59,523 nucleotides of DNA from Synechococcales cyanobacterium bin31.maxbin.ball.101. Its GTDB lineage: Bacteria > Cyanobacteriota > Cyanobacteriia > Leptolyngbyales > Leptolyngbyaceae. Below are positions 7,787 to 27,944 of the stretch, in pieces (positions within the stretch are counted from its first letter, which is position 1; each line of letters begins with the position of its first letter). The DNA lies in contig JAAFJU010000014.1 of the NCBI GenBank assembly GCA_013298165.1, positions 1 to 59,523 on the forward strand, in the 5' to 3' direction. The notes below the pieces were generated by a model that saw nothing but the letters and a program-made list of their open reading frames with translations, ran no database searches and was not told the DNA's origin. The position numbers and the translations under genes are program-made.

Positions 7787-8542
7787 ATGCCAGAACCTTC
7801 TGAGTTGAGTAAGTTAGAGCCATCTCATCGAGGAATGCCAATCTTGATTTTCATGGTTGTCTTTCTTGATATCCTGGCATTCGGTATTCTCATTCCGGTT
7901 ATTACACCTCTCGTCCGCCAATTCACGGCTCAAGCATTAGTGGTGGGTTTGACGTTCACTGCTTTTGCTGTTGGACAATTTGTGTTTAGTCCTCTACTTG
8001 GAGTCCTGTCCGATCGCTACGGGCGACGACCGATCTTGCTAATTAGCTCCTTAGGTGGAATGTTGGCGAGTTACCTGTTAGGCGCAGCTAATTCGGTTGA
8101 ACTCATTTTGTTCTGCCGCTTCTTGGATGGCTGTACCGGAGGTAATCTACTGGCGGGTCAAGCGTATATCGCTGACATTACACCACCAGAACTCCGAGCC
8201 AAGAATTTCGGATTGATTGGGGCAGCAATATCATTGGGTTTCATTTTTGGACCTGCACTCGGTGGAGGTTTGAGCCTGGTGAATTCACAACTCCCTGCCT
8301 TCGTTGCTGGATCTTTGTATCTCATGACGGCATTATTGATTTGGTATAAATTGCCAGAATCTCTACCCGCAATTCACCGACGCAAAGAGTCCTTCCAATG
8401 GCAAGAACTCAATCCCCTCACCAAGATTTTTCAGGCATTCCAGCGTCCGTCCGTCCGATTTTTACTGATGGTTACATTTCTGGTCAGCTTTGCCGAGGAT
8501 GGGTTGCGTTCCAATATCCAAGTACTAACGGAGGAGCGATTT
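7787..8542 (+). pseudogene. MFS exporter, N-terminal part (split by IS)
   Basis: These 252 codons encode the first half or so of a 12-TM major facilitator transporter, with the loop 2-3 motif GVLSDRYGRRPIL and the start of the second bundle. The frame runs into the insertion sequence at 8544 and stops inside it at 8626. Removing the element and one TA copy joins this frame exactly to the codon at 9526 (...EERF+SFLIQQNALLF...), giving a normal 406-residue protein. The gene is therefore broken only by the insertion. The family is probably drug or metabolite export. It is the first gene after operator 2. Confidence 0.85.
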
Positions 8543-8584
8543 AGGGCGTATCTGCAAAGTCTAGATATATGGTTTTGTCTCGTT

Positions 8585-9046
8585 TCACAACCAAAGGAGA
8601 ATAGCAGCAATGGTGAGCATGGCTAAATAGTTGTCCGCCCGTTTTTCATAGCGGGTCGCAATCCGCCGAGCTTGTTTAAGGCGATTGATCAATCGTTCAA
8701 TCCGATTCCGTTCACGATAGAGCACCAGGTTCAACCGGGAACGCCGTTTGACATGGCGACGCTTTGGAATCACTGGGGTCGTGCCTTGCCGACGCAAGCA
8801 ATGGCGAATGTCCTTCGAGTCATACCCTTTATCTCCGACCAGATAACGAGGTCGTCGTTTGGGTCTACCTCGCCCAGAACGCTTGACCGCAGGTGCCGCC
8901 GCATTCAGCTTGCAAAAGCCTTTGAAATCTGAGCTTTGCCCTGGCAAGACGACAAACTGCATGGGTTTGCCTAACCCTTCACATTGAATCTGAATCTTGC
9001 TGCTAAAGCCGCCTTTCGAGCGTCCTAGGGCTTCTTGCTCCTGCAT
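8585..9046 (-). CDS. IS5-family transposase, second frame
   Basis: This is the C-terminal part of the transposase, with the second catalytic Asp in LVGDKGYDS and the Glu in RIERLINRLKQARRIATRYEK (DDE set). The Met at 9046 is probably not a real start: the frame is open upstream (SDFTVEQ MQEQEALGRSKGG) and would be reached by a -1 frameshift from the first frame at the A5G5 run 9076-9085. It would act only as part of the fused product. Confidence 0.88.
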   Translation of the reverse strand: MQEQEALGRSKGGFSSKIQIQCEGLGKPMQFVVLPGQSSDFKGFCKLNAAAPAVKRSGRGRPKRRPRYLVGDKGYDSKDIRHCLRRQGTTPVIPKRRHVKRRSRLNLVLYRERNRIERLINRLKQARRIATRYEKRADNYLAMLTIAAILLWL

Positions 9047-19589: not shown

Positions 19590-20855
19590 TCAACGAGATC
19601 GCAATAACCGTTGTCTCAATCCCTGAGCCGATGCCACATCGCCCTGACTTTCCCGCAACAAGGCCAAAAGCATTAATGCTTCTTCATGATCCGGCATCAA
19701 ATAAACCGCCTTCGCCAAATACCGATCGGACTCCGCCAACGATCCGATCGCCTGACAAATCTGACCCATCAAAAAATAGCCCTCGCCACACAAGGGCTGA
19801 CGTTTTAAATAATGCTCACAACAGTCCAATGCTTCCTCTAATTTCGACGCATCGGCCAATTCCCGCGATCGTTTTAACAAATCCGTGGCGATGGGCAAAT
19901 CGATCGTTGACTCTGTTGACTCTGATGATGTGACGTTGGATTTGATTTTGGATTTTGGATTTTGGATTTTGGATTTGAGAGGGGATTTGAGGGGGGATTT
20001 GATGTGAGGTTTGGCTACAGAGTTGGGGGTTGGGGAGATTGATTTTTGATAGGCAAAGGCGTAGGGGAATGGAAACATGGACCAACGATCGCGCAACAGA
20101 GAGCCTGTTTCAGCATGTCCCACAAACAAAAGGCCCGTTTTATCTAAACATCGATCGAAGCCTTGCAAAACCTTTTGGCGAGTCTCTGGATCAAAATAAA
20201 TCAACAGGTTACGACAAAAAATGACGTCGTAGTTAGAATCAATAGCCGGAATGCTTTGAATCGTCCAATCCATCACATTCCCTAGCCTAAAATCAATCGT
20301 TTGCATCACCTCCGGCGACATCTGCAAACACTGATCTTGATAACTCCAATAGTCTGCAACACGCTCCCAGAGGCTTCCCGAAGCCTGGATTGCATAGCGT
20401 CCAGATCTGGCAATGCCTAAGGCCCGATCGCTCAAATCGATCGCATCAATTTCAAACTGCTCCAAACTCAATCCCGCACCCAACAAGGTCAACGCGATCG
20501 AATAAGGCTCTTCTCCCGTCGAACAGGGCAAACTCAGAATCTTAAGTTTGCGATCGTTCAAGGTTTGAGTTTGTGCCTGCGCCCATTCGGCGAGACATTG
20601 AAACGGGACCCGATCGCGAAAAAACGAGGTCTCCGGCACCACCACTTCATCTAAAAATGCCTGCCATTCCCCGCCCTGCTGCTGCAATTGAAACCAATAG
20701 TTGGCCACCGTTCGCGTCTGCGTCACCTTCATGCGATGCACGATCGATCGACGGATATTCAATGCACCTAAACAATCACAGGACAGCCCTGTCTTAGTTG
20801 TGAGATGCTGCACGATCGCGTTCCACAGCCACGGTTCGCACTCTAAGCTGATCAC
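19590..20855 (-). CDS. wspC: CheR-type methyltransferase with TPR (WspC-like)
   Basis: The 421-residue protein has CheR domains (VVPETSFFRDRVPF, SLPCSTGEEPYSIALTLLGA, DVIFCRNLLIYFDPETRQ) and a C-terminal TPR region of about 85 residues after a low-complexity linker. It methylates the receptor using SAM. The CheR-TPR form and its place next to wspB match WspC. It overlaps wspB by 62 bases. The linker ([12 protein letters not shown]) is encoded by heptamer repeats. WspC assignment rests on architecture and gene order. No CheB-like demethylase (WspF) is found in the window. Confidence 0.85.
   Translation of the reverse strand: MISLECEPWLWNAIVQHLTTKTGLSCDCLGALNIRRSIVHRMKVTQTRTVANYWFQLQQQGGEWQAFLDEVVVPETSFFRDRVPFQCLAEWAQAQTQTLNDRKLKILSLPCSTGEEPYSIALTLLGAGLSLEQFEIDAIDLSDRALGIARSGRYAIQASGSLWERVADYWSYQDQCLQMSPEVMQTIDFRLGNVMDWTIQSIPAIDSNYDVIFCRNLLIYFDPETRQKVLQGFDRCLDKTGLLFVGHAETGSLLRDRWSMFPFPYAFAYQKSISPTPNSVAKPHIKSPLKSPLKSKIQNPKSKIKSNVTSSESTESTIDLPIATDLLKRSRELADASKLEEALDCCEHYLKRQPLCGEGYFLMGQICQAIGSLAESDRYLAKAVYLMPDHEEALMLLALLRESQGDVASAQGLRQRLLRSR
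19936..19976. repeat. GGATTTT heptamer repeats inside wspC
   Basis: Five or so copies of GGATTTT encode the KIQNPKSKI-type linker. Three units (21 bases) keep the frame, so the linker can change length by 7 residues. The same unit lies at 14571-14598. Confidence 0.7.
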
Positions 20856-21309
20856 AGGAATTCCTCACTTGAGTCAAAAGTTGATCCACCGACAGACCAT
20901 AGATTAAGGTTTGGTCCTGCATCAGGATTTGCTGTGTCTCCGAAGAACTCCAGAGATCATCATCCAGGGTCCAAGTCTGTACCATGGAAGCCGCCATCAA
21001 TCCCCAGACCCGACGATCGCTCTCGTCTTGAACCACCATAATGCGCGTCCCGATCGTCTTCGGACAGGGCACACCCATCAGCAATTGCGATAAATCAATC
21101 ACTGGAACGAGATCCAATTGCTGAGTCCCGGGTTGCTGCCCGGGTTGATCCCCATGCCACTGCAACAAACCGACCTGGGCCGATTGGAAATCGGATGAGA
21201 CCAGTTCGACCTGCGATCGTTGCAGCCTTGTCGCAGGCAGCACCTGTAATACTCGTTTCGCCTCGATCGCATAGTGCCGAGAGGCCACCTTAAACAACAA
21301 CAGCAACAT
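20794..21309 (-). CDS. wspB: CheW-like adaptor (WspB-like)
   Basis: A 171-residue CheW-domain protein: LLLFKVASRHYAIEAKRVLQVLP at the N-terminus, then LVPVIDLSQLLMG and RIMVVQDESDRRVWGLMAASM. It couples the receptor to the CheA-type kinase. Its start is about 200 bp from the divergent receptor gene, and its end overlaps wspC. The second CheW in the cluster (23313-24020) has a Cys-rich head, so this plain one corresponds to WspB. Confidence 0.83.
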   Translation of the reverse strand: MLLLLFKVASRHYAIEAKRVLQVLPATRLQRSQVELVSSDFQSAQVGLLQWHGDQPGQQPGTQQLDLVPVIDLSQLLMGVPCPKTIGTRIMVVQDESDRRVWGLMAASMVQTWTLDDDLWSSSETQQILMQDQTLIYGLSVDQLLTQVRNSCDQLRVRTVAVERDRAASHN

Positions 21310-21510: not shown

Positions 21511-23187
21511 ATGCTTGGCAAGCTAAACCTCCGCGATCGCGTTCTTCTCGGCTATTCCGTCACCACAGGTCTGATCGTCGTCTTCAGTGGTGCCGTCATG
21601 GTCAATGCCAATAAAATCTCCGAGACCTTTCAGCGCGTCGATGAAACCCAGACCCTGATTGTCGAAACCAAAGACATGAACGTCAGCATGGTCAACATGG
21701 AGCGGCGGATCAAGCGGTATCTGCTCACGCCTGATACTGAGGCGGTCAAACTGATGAATGAGGACCTACAAAGCCTGAAAGAAAGTAGCGAAAAAGCCCT
21801 AAACGCCACCCGTGACAAGGCCCAAAAAGAACGTCTGCAAAAAATGTTGGTCCTCGCTTCAGAACTCCGATCGTTGGGCGATCGAATGCTGGCCATCCCA
21901 CCCCAAGCCGTCACGAAGACCGTCATTGCGAACTATATCAAACAGGCCCTCAGCGCCACCACCGAGTTCGATCGGCTCAACAATGAACTCATCGAAATCG
22001 GGCGTAAAAATTTAGACAGCAATATCACTTCTACTCAAGGCGGCATTGAATGGATGAAGGGACTCTCCATCTTTTCATCTCTCCTGGCTGTCACGGTTTC
22101 CATCGTCGGAGCTTACATTCTTTCGCGATCGCTCTCTGGCCAAATCAATGAAGTGATTCAAGTGGCCGATCGACTCTCCAGCGGGGACTTTAGCCATCGC
22201 CTCACCGACAGCGCCACCCGCAGCACCGACGAAATCGGCAAACTCATGGTCTCTTTCCAAAAGATGACCCACACCCTCAGCGCATTGCTCGAACAGGTCC
22301 AGCGGGCCAGTCTCCAAGTCAGCACCTCCTGCGTCCAACTCGGTCGATCGGGCAACCAGCTCGAAGGTAGCATCACCCACCAGATTTCCTCGACTCAACA
22401 AGTCACCAGCGCCGCCCAAGAGATCGCCGCTACCTCCAGCCAACTGGTCCAGACCATGGAAAACGTCTCGGCTCTGTCTCAAAACACGGCCCAGACTGCC
22501 AGCAATAACCAAGAAGACCTGATCCAAATGGAAGGCACCATGCGTCGCCTCGCTGATTCCACCCAATCGATTTCAACGAAACTCGGAACCATCAGCGAAA
22601 AAGCCAACAACATCAACGCGATCGTTGCCACCATCACCAAGGTTGCCGATCAAACCAATTTGTTATCCTTAAATGCGGCGATCGAAGCTGAAAAAGCAGG
22701 GGAATATGGCCTGGGTTTCTCAGTCGTCGCCAAAGAAATCCGACGCCTTGCGGACCAAACGGCAATTGCAACGATCGACATTGAACAAATGGTCAAAGAA
22801 ATGCAATCCGCCGTCTCCACGGGCGTGATGGAAATGGATAAATTCAGTCAAGAAGTGGGCCAAGGGGTTAACGATGTCGGTCTGATCATCAGCCAACTGG
22901 GTCAAGTGATTGAACAAGTCCAAGACCTCACCCCCCGCTTTGAATCCGTCAATCAAGGCATGGAACTGCAAGCCGAAAGCGCCACCCAAATCAGCGAATC
23001 CATGATTCAACTGAGCAACACCTCGCAAGAAACTGGAGAAGCACTGGTTGCAATCAAATCTGCAATCAGCGAACTGACGATCGCAGAACAAGATCTCCAA
23101 CGCGAACTCTCCCGCTTTAAAGTCCGCACCACCCAAGATGTCCGATCGGACCATTCCCAGCAAACACCCCGTTTTGCCTATAGCTAA
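21511..23187 (+). CDS. wspA: Methyl-accepting chemoreceptor (WspA-like)
   Basis: The 558-residue receptor has TM1 (about 12-32), a helical periplasmic region of about 145 residues, TM2 (about 184-205), HAMP (about 206-260) and a long coiled signalling domain. The hairpin tip reads [20 protein letters not shown], then [16 protein letters not shown] and [20 protein letters not shown], close to what I recall of WspA. WspA receptors cluster laterally and respond to surface contact or envelope stress. AGGAA precedes the ATG. First gene of the rightward half. Confidence 0.88.
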
Positions 23188-23312: not shown

Positions 23313-24020
23313 ATGGCTCCCCCAACCGACTCCACTGCTCTACTCACCCATAACCTAGATGCTCGCCAACTCGTCTCCTGTTGGCGAAACATCGGCATTC
23401 ACGGCGACAGGTCCTGCCCGGAACTCCCCGCCGTCACCCATTGCCACAACTGCCCCACCTATACTCAAACCGCCCGCCAACTCTTCGATCGGCCCGTCCT
23501 GGAATCCCTCGAATCCCGCGTCCCCATCACCCCATCACCCCATCACTCCACAACCAGCGAAGTCCAAAACACCTCCCTCGCCCTCTTCCGCATCGGCCAA
23601 GACTGGTTTGCCCTGCCCGCCCACCTGTTTCAGCAAGTCGTCACTACGCGGCCGATTCGTCCTATTCCCCATCGCAGTAACGCCATACTAAATGGACTCG
23701 TCAACATCCAAGGCGAACTCCTCCTCTGCGTCAACTTAAAAAATCTCCTCCACCTCCCCGAACCTACCAATCATCTCCCGCTCAAAATCCTGCCCCGACT
23801 CATCATCATCGAAGGGGAAGGCGATCGGTGGAGTTTTGTCGTAGACGAATTTCAAGGCATCGAAACGATCGCCCCCCAGCAGCTCATCACCCCTCCCAGC
23901 ACCGTCCTCACCAGCACCCAAACCTTCACCCACAGCCTCTTCACCTGGAACGACTGCCCCGTCAACTGCCTCGACGAATGCCTCCTCTTTGAAGCCCTAG
24001 AGCGCACCGCACTATCATGA
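23313..24020 (+). CDS. wspD: CheW-like adaptor with Cys-rich head (WspD-like)
   Basis: The 235-residue protein has a conserved N-terminal head (SCWRNIGIHGDRSCPEL, then THCHNCPTY) with four Cys, as in WspD proteins, a short variable linker, and a CheW domain (LALFRIGQDWFALPAHLFQQ, GLVNIQGELLLCVNL). It is the second adaptor joining WspA and WspE. The Cys may bind a metal or sense redox; that is inference. The stop overlaps the wspE ATG by 4 bases (ATGA). Confidence 0.85.
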   Translation: MAPPTDSTALLTHNLDARQLVSCWRNIGIHGDRSCPELPAVTHCHNCPTYTQTARQLFDRPVLESLESRVPITPSPHHSTTSEVQNTSLALFRIGQDWFALPAHLFQQVVTTRPIRPIPHRSNAILNGLVNIQGELLLCVNLKNLLHLPEPTNHLPLKILPRLIIIEGEGDRWSFVVDEFQGIETIAPQQLITPPSTVLTSTQTFTHSLFTWNDCPVNCLDECLLFEALERTALS

Positions 24021-26416
24021 GTACCTCCCCGACAAATCCCCCAACCAGCAACCAGCACAGCCCAGAAACCCCGCGTTATCGGAAACTCGGCACCGATCCG
24101 GCTCTGGTTAGCCTGTTTTGCCAAGAAGTGCGAATGCAACTGGATATCCTCAACCCCAACCTCCTGCGTCTCGAAGCCGAAGGATTTCAAAGCGAAATCC
24201 TGGAAGCCCTGATGCGCGCCGCCCATTCCCTCAAAGGCGCAGGCCGCATGGTTCACATTGACCTCGCCGTCGGTCTCACCCACGAACTCGAAAACTACTT
24301 CGTCAAACTGCAAAAAACCCGCACCCCGCCCGACGCCATCGGATGCGACATCATCTTTCAAAGCATCGATGCCCTAGAATCGATCGCCACCCGCCTCCAG
24401 CACTTCCCCAACGACACCCTCAGCGAAGAAGCGCCGATCGTTCTAAACTGCGCCCGCATGATCGCCGAGCTAGATCCCAGCCAGCCAGCCCCCGAAATCC
24501 CCGCCCCCGAAATCCCCACGCCCCAGATCGCTCCAGATCCCGTACGGGCAGCGCTTCCCGCGCCCTCTTCCCTAGCCGCGCCCGCGCCATCTCCCGCCCC
24601 CGTTTCCCCAGCCACGCCCGATCGCACCATCCGCCTCAGCCGCGAAAATCTAAGCCGCCTCATGGGACTCGTCGGCGAATCCCTCACCGAAGCCACCTGG
24701 CTCGAACCCTTTGGCCGATCGCTCCTCGATCTAAAAACCCAACAAACCCACCTGATCGAACTCCTCGACAGCCTCCAAGCCCAACTCCCCACCCACTCCC
24801 ATCCAAAACTCCACAGCCTTCTCAGCCAAGCCCGCCACCAAGCCAACCAAAGCCGTCGCAACCTCCTCGATCGCACCACCGAACTCGAAGAATACACCAG
24901 CCGATCGAACCAACTCGCCAACCGCCTCTACCAAGAAGTCATCGAAAGCCAAATGCGTCCTTTCAGCGACGTGGGCATCGGCTTCCCCCGCATGGTTCGC
25001 GACCTCGCACGGCAGGTGAACAAACAAATCAAACTCGAAATCATCGGCAAACAAACCAACATCGATCGCGACATCCTCGACCACCTCGAAGCCCCCCTCA
25101 CCCACCTATTACGAAACGCTATCGACCACGGGATTGAAAGCCCCGACGATCGGACCAACAAGGGCAAAACCGCCTACGGAACCATCCAACTCACCGCCAA
25201 ACACAGCGCCGGAAGCTTGATCATCACTGTCCAAGACGACGGCAGAGGCATCGATCCCGATCACCTCCGGGAGCATATTCTCAAACGCCAACTCGCCACC
25301 CCTGAAATGGTCGCCCAACTCAGCTTGGCCGAACTCATGGCCTTCCTCTATCTACCGGGCTTCTCCACCGCCGATCGCATTAGCGAACTCTCCGGACGCG
25401 GCGTCGGACTCGATGTTGTCCACAGCCTGGTCCAGAGCGTCGGCGGCACCCTCACCGCCCAATCCCAACCCGGTCAAGGCACCAGCTTTTCCCTCAACCT
25501 GCCCCTGACGCGATCGCTCCTGCGCACCCTCGTCGTCGAAATCGCAGGCCAACCCTACGCCTTCCCCATCACCCGCATCGATCGCATCAGCAGACTCTCC
25601 CCCTCCGACATCCATCACTCCGAAAACCGCCCCTACCTCCTCCACAACCAACAATCCATCGGACTCCTCCAAACCAGCGACATCCTCAGCCTCGAAAGCG
25701 CCCCCCGCCAGAGCGAAACCCTCACCATCCTCCACATCAGCGACCAGCAATCCCACTACGGCCTAATCGTCGATCGCATCCTCGGCGAAGAAAAGCTCGT
25801 GATCAAACCCATGCACCCCCGCCTCGGCAAAATCCCCAACCTCAGCGCCACCGCCCTGCGCAGCGACGGCACGATCGCCCTCATCATCGACACCGAAGAC
25901 CTCCTCCAATCCATCCAAAAACACATCGCCTCTTCCGCTTCCGCTTCCGCTTCCGCTTCCGTACGGGCCGCGCATCCCGCGCCCTCTTCCCCCACCCCCT
26001 CTTCAAAACGCATCCTAGTCGTAGACGACTCCATCACCGTCCGAGAAACCGAGCGCAAGCTCCTCGAAAACCAAGGCTACCCCGTCGATACCGCCATCAA
26101 CGGCATAGACGGCTGGAACGCCCTCCAATTTGGCCAATACGCCCTCCTCATCACCGACATCGACATGCCCCGCATGAATGGCATCGAACTCGTCCACCAA
26201 ATCAAACACCACCCAAAACTCGCCAAACTCCCCACCATCATCATCTCCTACAAAGACCGAGAAGAAGACCGACTGCGTGGCCTAGAAGTCGGCGCAGACT
26301 ACTACCTCACCAAAAGCAGCTTCCACGATGACACCCTGATCCAAGCCGTCAAAGACCTGATCGGCGCACCCGAAAATCACCATAACCCCCTCAAGAAGCT
26401 CAACCATCCCCGCTAA
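24017..26416 (+). CDS. wspE: CheA-type hybrid kinase with receiver (WspE-like)
   Basis: The 799-residue protein has an HPt domain (phosphorylated His70 in RAAHSLKGAG), a Pro/Ala linker, a dimerisation part, an ATPase domain (LLRNAIDHGIES, DDGRGID, GRGVGLDVV), a CheW domain (QPYAFPITRIDRI), a second low-complexity linker, and a C-terminal receiver (VVDDS, LITDIDMPRMNG, K in YYLTKSS). This HPt-kinase-CheW-REC order is that of WspE. The two linkers share the coded sequence VRAA.PAPSS at 24541 and 25971. Confidence 0.9.
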   Translation: MSTSPTNPPTSNQHSPETPRYRKLGTDPALVSLFCQEVRMQLDILNPNLLRLEAEGFQSEILEALMRAAHSLKGAGRMVHIDLAVGLTHELENYFVKLQKTRTPPDAIGCDIIFQSIDALESIATRLQHFPNDTLSEEAPIVLNCARMIAELDPSQPAPEIPAPEIPTPQIAPDPVRAALPAPSSLAAPAPSPAPVSPATPDRTIRLSRENLSRLMGLVGESLTEATWLEPFGRSLLDLKTQQTHLIELLDSLQAQLPTHSHPKLHSLLSQARHQANQSRRNLLDRTTELEEYTSRSNQLANRLYQEVIESQMRPFSDVGIGFPRMVRDLARQVNKQIKLEIIGKQTNIDRDILDHLEAPLTHLLRNAIDHGIESPDDRTNKGKTAYGTIQLTAKHSAGSLIITVQDDGRGIDPDHLREHILKRQLATPEMVAQLSLAELMAFLYLPGFSTADRISELSGRGVGLDVVHSLVQSVGGTLTAQSQPGQGTSFSLNLPLTRSLLRTLVVEIAGQPYAFPITRIDRISRLSPSDIHHSENRPYLLHNQQSIGLLQTSDILSLESAPRQSETLTILHISDQQSHYGLIVDRILGEEKLVIKPMHPRLGKIPNLSATALRSDGTIALIIDTEDLLQSIQKHIASSASASASASVRAAHPAPSSPTPSSKRILVVDDSITVRETERKLLENQGYPVDTAINGIDGWNALQFGQYALLITDIDMPRMNGIELVHQIKHHPKLAKLPTIIISYKDREEDRLRGLEVGADYYLTKSSFHDDTLIQAVKDLIGAPENHHNPLKKLNHPR
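25934..25963 (+). repeat. TTCCGC hexamer tandem repeat in wspE linker
   Basis: About five copies of TTCCGC encode a (Ser-Ala)n run between the CheW and receiver domains. Six-base units keep the frame, so linker length may vary between strains. Confidence 0.8.
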
Positions 26417-26471
26417 TCGCCTCTAACCGTTATTCCATGACCCAAAACGGGCACGTTAAACACAGCCTCCC

Positions 26472-27944
26472 ATGGACATAGCCCGGACGATCGACCCCAT
26501 CCCAAACCAGTCACCCACCCAAACCTTGTTCATGTTCACCGTAAACCCCACAATACCCACCCAACCCAACATCAACCCCGAGACCCCGATCGGTCAATCT
26601 GTCGGTCCATCTGTCGGCCAACTTGCCGATCAATCTGCCATCAACACCTTCGACAGCAGCAAGCTCACCGCAACCCGCATCACCGTCCTCCTGATCGACG
26701 ACCAAAGCATGGTCAGCGAAGTCCTCCAACGCAGCCTCAGCAAAGAAACCGACATCGACTTCCACTATTGCAGCGACCCGACAATGGCCATCACCACGGC
26801 CATCGACATCGCCCCCACCATCATCCTGCAAGACCTCGTCATGCCCGACGTAGACGGACTCATGCTGCTCCGGTGGTTCCGCCTCAACCCCGCCACCAAG
26901 GACATTCCCATGATCGTCCTCTCCTGCAAAGAAGACGCCCACCTCAAAGCCGAAGCCTTCACCCACGGAGCCAACGACTACCTAATCAAACTCCCCGACA
27001 CGATCGAACTCGTCGCCCGGATTCGCTATCACTCCCAGGCGTATCAAAACCTCAAAGCCCTTCAAGCCACCACCCTCGCCGCCCAACAACAAGCCCAACA
27101 GCTTGCCCACACCCTCAATCAAGTCCAAGAAATGCAAGCCCAGATCATCCAGTCCGAAAAAATGACTGGACTGGGTCGCATGGTTGCAGGCATCGCCCAC
27201 GAAATCAACAACCCCATCAACTTCATCCACGGCAACGTCAAGCACCTTGGCGAATACATGGACGACCTCCTCAATCTCGTCAAGCTCTACCAAACCACCT
27301 ACCCCGAACCCACCGAAGACATCGAAGCCCTGCGCGACACGATCGACATCGCCTTCCTCAGCCAAGACTTACCCAAACTCATGAACTCCATGAAGTTTGG
27401 CTCAGAGCGGATTCGCAACATCGTCCTCTCCCTGCGCAACTTCTCACGCCTCGACGAATCCGAGAAAAAATCCGTCTCCCTAGAGCATGGCATCGACAGC
27501 ACCCTCATGCTCCTCGGACACCGCCTCAAAACCGAAAACGGCACCCCCCACATCACCATCAAACGCGACTACCACAACATCCCCAACATCGATTGCTATC
27601 CCGCCCAGCTCAATCAAGTGTTCATGCACATCCTGAACAACGCGATCGACGCCCTAGAGACCTATCCCGTCAACGAAACCCCCGCCATCGTCATCTCCAC
27701 CCGACAGATCAATCACCAAGTCGAGATCAAAATTCAAGACAACGGTACAGGCATTCCCATGGATTTGCACGATCGGATCTTTGAACCCTTCTTCACCACC
27801 AAATCCGTCAACCAAGGCACCGGACTCGGACTCGCCATTTGCTACAAAATCATCCAAAAGCATCACGCCAGCATCACCGTCCAGTCGGCCCCCGGCCAAG
27901 GCAGCACCTTCACCCTAACCATCCCCATTCTCATCAACACCTAA
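26472..27944 (+). CDS. Receiver-histidine kinase output protein (WspR-like receiver)
   Basis: The 490-residue protein has a disordered head (1-65), a receiver domain (about 70-190: LLIDDQSM, phosphoacceptor D121 in ILQDLVMPDVDG, K173 in NDYLIKLPD), a coiled coil (about 195-228), then HisKA (H243 in GIAHEINNPINF) and HATPase (NNAIDAL, DNGTGIP, GTGLGLAI). The receiver reads like WspR receivers (ILQDLVMP, GANDYLIKLPD.IELVARIRYHS, as I remember them), but the GGDEF domain is replaced by a kinase. It starts 55 bases after wspE, so WspE is its likely phosphodonor. Met21 is another possible start. The next regulator in the chain is unknown. Confidence 0.9.
   Translation: MDIARTIDPIPNQSPTQTLFMFTVNPTIPTQPNINPETPIGQSVGPSVGQLADQSAINTFDSSKLTATRITVLLIDDQSMVSEVLQRSLSKETDIDFHYCSDPTMAITTAIDIAPTIILQDLVMPDVDGLMLLRWFRLNPATKDIPMIVLSCKEDAHLKAEAFTHGANDYLIKLPDTIELVARIRYHSQAYQNLKALQATTLAAQQQAQQLAHTLNQVQEMQAQIIQSEKMTGLGRMVAGIAHEINNPINFIHGNVKHLGEYMDDLLNLVKLYQTTYPEPTEDIEALRDTIDIAFLSQDLPKLMNSMKFGSERIRNIVLSLRNFSRLDESEKKSVSLEHGIDSTLMLLGHRLKTENGTPHITIKRDYHNIPNIDCYPAQLNQVFMHILNNAIDALETYPVNETPAIVISTRQINHQVEIKIQDNGTGIPMDLHDRIFEPFFTTKSVNQGTGLGLAICYKIIQKHHASITVQSAPGQGSTFTLTIPILINT

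Follow-up and report, generated by a model that had tools for sequence, protein, structure and literature searches.

The gene cluster and its terminal receiver-kinase

The DNA that we analyzed, a stretch of 59,523 nucleotides referred to here as the window, contains a chemosensory gene cluster of the Wsp type that ends in a gene for a receiver (REC) joined to a histidine kinase (HK). The genes of the cluster and the features of the terminal gene are:

19590-20855, minus strand: cheR with C-terminal TPR, wspC-like, on the divergent strand (Pfam: CheR 1.5e-37, TPR weak)
20794-21309, minus strand: cheW, wspB-like, on the divergent strand (Pfam)
21511-23187, plus strand: MCP gene with CHASE3-HAMP, wspA-like (Pfam)
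23313-24020, plus strand: cheW, wspD-like (Pfam, comparisons with relatives)
24017-26416, plus strand: wspE-like cheA with Hpt, HATPase, CheW and C-terminal REC (Pfam; comparison with proteobacterial WspE)
26472-27944, plus strand: REC-HisKA-HATPase gene, WspH-like, 490 amino acids, at the WspR place (ORF, Pfam, orthologue alignment, predicted model)
26685-27026, plus strand: WspR-type receiver domain, residues 72-185 (Pfam, WspR match E=2e-48, receiver tree)
26832-26834, plus strand: codon of D121, the predicted phosphoacceptor (motif ILQDLVMP; invariant across the orthologue alignment)
27027-27173, plus strand: helical linker, residues 186-234, within a continuous helix 177-276 (predicted model)
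27174-27449, plus strand: DHp region, residues 235-326, with H243 at 27198-27200 (HisKA 235-261 by Pfam; model helices 177-276 and 293-326)
27600-27929, plus strand: HATPase_c domain, residues 377-486 (Pfam)

We confirmed that ORF 26472-27944 encodes a WspR-type receiver, a long helix and a complete histidine kinase and that it ends the Wsp-type cluster, in keeping with the original prediction of a receiver, a coiled coil and a HisKA-HATPase directly after wspE. The gene starts 55 bases past the end of wspE, and its product matched Response_reg at residues 72-185 (7.7e-16), HATPase_c at 377-486 (1.7e-26) and, partially, HisKA at 235-261 (1.7e-7). The GGDEF diguanylate cyclase found at the C-terminus of WspR is absent and HisKA-HATPase stands in its place. 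In the predicted model, the receiver leads into helix 177-276, which bears H243; a second DHp helix (293-326) and then the ATPase domain follow. Mean pLDDT was 77.6, and the arrangement of the domains is uncertain because confidence in the linker is moderate (pLDDT about 69-79) and pTM was 0.41; the N-terminus is poorly ordered (pLDDT <50 for residues 1-66). Across eight aligned orthologues there is no variation at D121, H243, the acidic pair D76/D77, S151 or K173, nor at the N/G-box residues. The kinase end had been predicted to resemble common cyanobacterial kinases, and the kinase core is indeed of a type common in the source genome, with up to 54% identity to other kinases encoded there.

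A single cluster holds an MCP, two CheW proteins, CheR-TPR (the TPR match being weak) and a CheA with Hpt and REC, the gene content of a Wsp system, and its terminal regulator carries a WspR-type receiver as judged by PDB search and tree. Window WspE aligns with its proteobacterial counterparts along the whole protein (39-44% identity over about 760-780 amino acids), the MCP retains its signalling domain and cheR is present. By contrast, the CheB methylesterase (WspF; PF01339) had no match in the cluster or anywhere in the source genome, which is 96% complete, whereas it was present in 17 of the 24 genomes searched. With no detectable cheB, signalling here may differ from that of a complete Wsp system. 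No response regulator gene adjoins the REC-HK gene in the window.

The wspD, wspE and REC-HK genes (23313-27944) have C at 59-63% and G at 10-12% of third codon positions, unlike most flanking genes, a pattern that may reflect either foreign origin or a local bias. Separately, the best matches to window WspE in three genomes of the same genus, one of them 69% complete, reached only about E=1e-74, which suggests that a WspE orthologue is missing from all three.

WspR-type receivers and their outputs in cyanobacteria

The receiver had been predicted to be WspR-like, and three comparisons bore this out. Among PDB entries it matched the WspR structures 3bre (2e-48) and 3i5a (7e-48), with PleD next at 4e-15, a likeness to WspR far beyond chance. 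It is 56-68% identical to the Wsp-type receivers compared, including that of P. aeruginosa WspR at ~65%, and 23-34% identical to ordinary receivers. Finally, a receiver tree of 53 rows split Wsp-type from ordinary receivers at 100/99, and grouping with the receivers of ordinary REC-HK proteins was not seen. On the tree and the PDB search we reject an ordinary REC-HK beside wspE. We also considered that a WspR-like GGDEF protein encoded elsewhere might be the real WspE target; searches of the 96%-complete source genome found none, and they detected no second WspR-type receiver, with or without GGDEF.

A protein search covered 386 genomes of the phylum, roughly half from outside the window's class, and yielded 25 WspR-type receivers in 23 genomes. 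A degenerate DNA pattern for GANDYL(I/V)KLP gave 24 sites in 22 genomes, each coinciding with a protein-search hit, whereas the reversed pattern used as a control gave 0. Outputs were read from translations; Pfam was applied to a single PP2C and a single cyclase example, and the rest were classed by motif and similarity. On this reading the 25 receivers carry eight REC-HK outputs (window included), one PAS-PAS-HK-REC-Hpt hybrid, four PP2C phosphatases and 12 class III cyclases in two layouts; a GGDEF output was seen on none of the 25. Two genomes, G110 and G357, each carry both the kinase and the cyclase type. Beyond this sample, a HAMP-cyclase type accompanies the WspR-type receiver in five relatives of the same family, Laspinema sp. 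D2d has a REC-HK with such a receiver, and genome G030 has one with no recognised output. A 256-amino-acid protein with a WspR-type receiver and no recognised output domain is encoded after cheA at 8183-8953 of locus L079. Among the loci listed in a contig scan (at least 80), only one, L123, had a close WspR-type receiver.

A search of cyanobacteria for REC-HK genes beside wsp genes, as the original prediction had suggested, found the same architecture after wsp genes in eight other cyanobacteria, with 50-58% identity over 418-446 amino acids. In six (G065, G114, G228, G057, G381 and Laspinema) cheA, cheB and REC-HK occur together, with the REC-HK gene after cheA and cheB; in the segment reported, the cheA of G065 matched window cheA across just 149 residues. 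In G110 the neighbour seen of REC-HK is cheB, with part of a cheA several kilobases upstream of that cheB, and in G357 only cheB was seen near the REC-HK gene.

Origins and relation to known Wsp systems

The nine cyanobacterial receivers joined to kinases (the H-type) require one label change in the receiver tree (90/85; 92% of bootstrap trees). Their kinase cores form no single clade in the best tree; grouping all nine gave an AU p of 0.065, and grouping the window with six gave 0.37, so a single origin of the core is neither shown nor clearly rejected. The cyanobacterial H-type rows come together in the receiver tree but not in the WspE tree (4 changes). Their history may involve one fusion with later exchange, or several fusions.

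A histidine kinase does stand at the WspR place, as predicted, but a swap from GGDEF proved too specific, since no GGDEF was found among the cyanobacterial outputs. Because Wsp receivers of cyanobacteria carry several outputs, none of them seen to be GGDEF, the immediate ancestor may have had a non-GGDEF output. Nor is the swap unprecedented. Burkholderia WspH (wspHRR; PMC8552884, PMC4324302), the product of a Wsp cluster, likewise has a WspR-type receiver with a histidine kinase attached and no GGDEF, but its kinase core is of another type (SHDMRSP versus AHEINNP in the window) and its gene lies 5' of wspA (PMC8552884), whereas the window gene follows wspE. Two Burkholderia records gave WspH-type proteins. 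One of these (L219) shares 49% identity with the window protein in a 150-residue stretch around the receiver and 22% in 122 residues at the ATPase end. The WspE tree separates cyanobacterial from proteobacterial WspE at 100/100 and places Burkholderia H-type WspE with the latter. Dissimilar kinase ends and separate WspE clades thus speak against common descent of kinase and system with Burkholderia WspH, and the two swaps appear to be independent and convergent. No genome with both Wsp systems had been reported (PMC8552884); contrary to this, the Burkholderia stagnalis and B. arboris records (L208 and L218; L209 and L219) each hold WspR-type REC-GGDEF and WspH-type genes.

Other known systems share parts of this design. 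Pseudomonas Wsp has a receiver about 65% identical and wspA/B/C/D/E-like counterparts, but its WspR ends in GGDEF where the window protein ends in a kinase, and the window genome lacks a detectable wspF (cheB). The cyanobacterial Wsp cluster of Phormidesmis priestleyi BC1401 (PMC4971617) also has an output other than GGDEF where WspR would stand, in that case a class III cyclase, and includes wspF. In the ACF chemosensory class (PMC3447774), clusters likewise combine CheR-TPR and a multidomain regulator, and an HK module is present in about 40% of these regulators; that class is broad and is not defined by a WspR-type receiver. The kind of swap is therefore already known, from Burkholderia WspH, from the HK-bearing regulators common in this pathway class and from the published cyanobacterial cyclase. 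What is new is a cyanobacterial H-type Wsp system, in a genome without detectable cheB (wspF). We found no description of one in the open-licence literature, although the supplementary table of PMC3447774 may list cyanobacterial HK-bearing regulators. A 2021 survey confined Wsp systems to beta- and gammaproteobacteria, which does not fit the PMC4971617 cluster or the present data.

A proposed phosphorelay and its alternatives

We propose that the window probably encodes a cyanobacterial H-type Wsp system in which WspE would act on D121, D121 on the activity of H243, and the kinase on a separate response regulator. The MCP would control the CheA-type kinase WspE, which would phosphorylate D121 of the WspR-type receiver; the state of the receiver would reach the dimerisation helices by way of the continuous helix and alter H243 autokinase activity, and the kinase would then phosphorylate a response regulator presumably encoded elsewhere. 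Since the last protein of this surface-sensing-like system has a histidine kinase in place of a c-di-GMP-making enzyme, a further regulator probably receives the signal. The original prediction, that surface sensing would feed a second His-Asp phosphorelay and not c-di-GMP, is thus supported in part, with surface contact as a putative stimulus. The data show how the domains are ordered, what kind of receiver is present, that catalytic residues are conserved, in which cluster the gene lies and that the design recurs in other cyanobacteria; phosphotransfer, whether control is on or off, the kinase's partner and the stimulus are inferred.

In Rhodospirillum centenum Che3 (CheA3-CheS3-CheY3), CheA3 phosphorylates REC1 of the REC-HK protein CheS3 (PMC3868531), a transfer to a second histidine kinase that in the window is proposed only; that cluster also encodes CheY3, whereas the window cluster encodes no adjoining response regulator. 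The sign of control differs among precedents, for genetics indicate that phosphorylation of REC1 lowers CheS3 kinase output (PMC3868531) while the Burkholderia H-type pathway is modelled as activating (PMC4324302). A NarL-type regulator was considered as the kinase partner. It lies beside the H-type gene in three genomes of one family (L106, L109 and L110) but is convergent and is absent from beside the window gene. The source genome does encode an 80% identical homologue at another place, and this regulator is only a lead.

The output could still be c-di-GMP if the kinase phosphorylated a separate REC-GGDEF protein, and the source genome has 12 GGDEF matches, including at least one stand-alone REC-GGDEF (329 amino acids). 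We consider this unlikely, as no genetic link joins the REC-HK gene to any GGDEF protein and Burkholderia wsp mutations left c-di-GMP unchanged (PMC8552884), with genetic evidence there for a downstream DNA-binding regulator (PMC4324302, PMC8552884). It is somewhat less plausible still that the protein is a self-contained hybrid, with H243 phosphorylating D121 in cis as a phosphate sink or feedback and WspE in a minor role. Both domains lie in one protein and some hybrid kinases act in this way (reviewed in PMC3868531), but the tethered CheS3 kinase does not phosphorylate REC1 (PMC3868531), and the window receiver is of the WspE-target type, a type kept in the tree beside several unrelated outputs. 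That an ordinary cyanobacterial REC-HK came to adjoin wspE by chance would agree with the commonness of its kinase core in this genome; the receiver tree, the PDB search and the conserved neighbourhood in other families contradict it and make it very improbable.

Beyond the proposed relay from WspE to the kinase, a broader view, which we hold tentatively and at slightly under even odds, is that cyanobacterial Wsp provides a common input to which kinase, cyclase or PP2C phosphatase outputs can be fitted interchangeably, with no direct production of c-di-GMP, that its H-type arose independently of that of Burkholderia, and that the present lineage, lacking WspF, lacks standard adaptation. The findings extend H-type Wsp signalling, which a published survey had confined to Burkholderia, to cyanobacteria, and suggest that the same receiver has acquired different outputs on more than one occasion. 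These natural swaps form a set in which the control of different catalytic modules by one receiver can be compared, and they offer a way into what Wsp pathways do in cyanobacteria.
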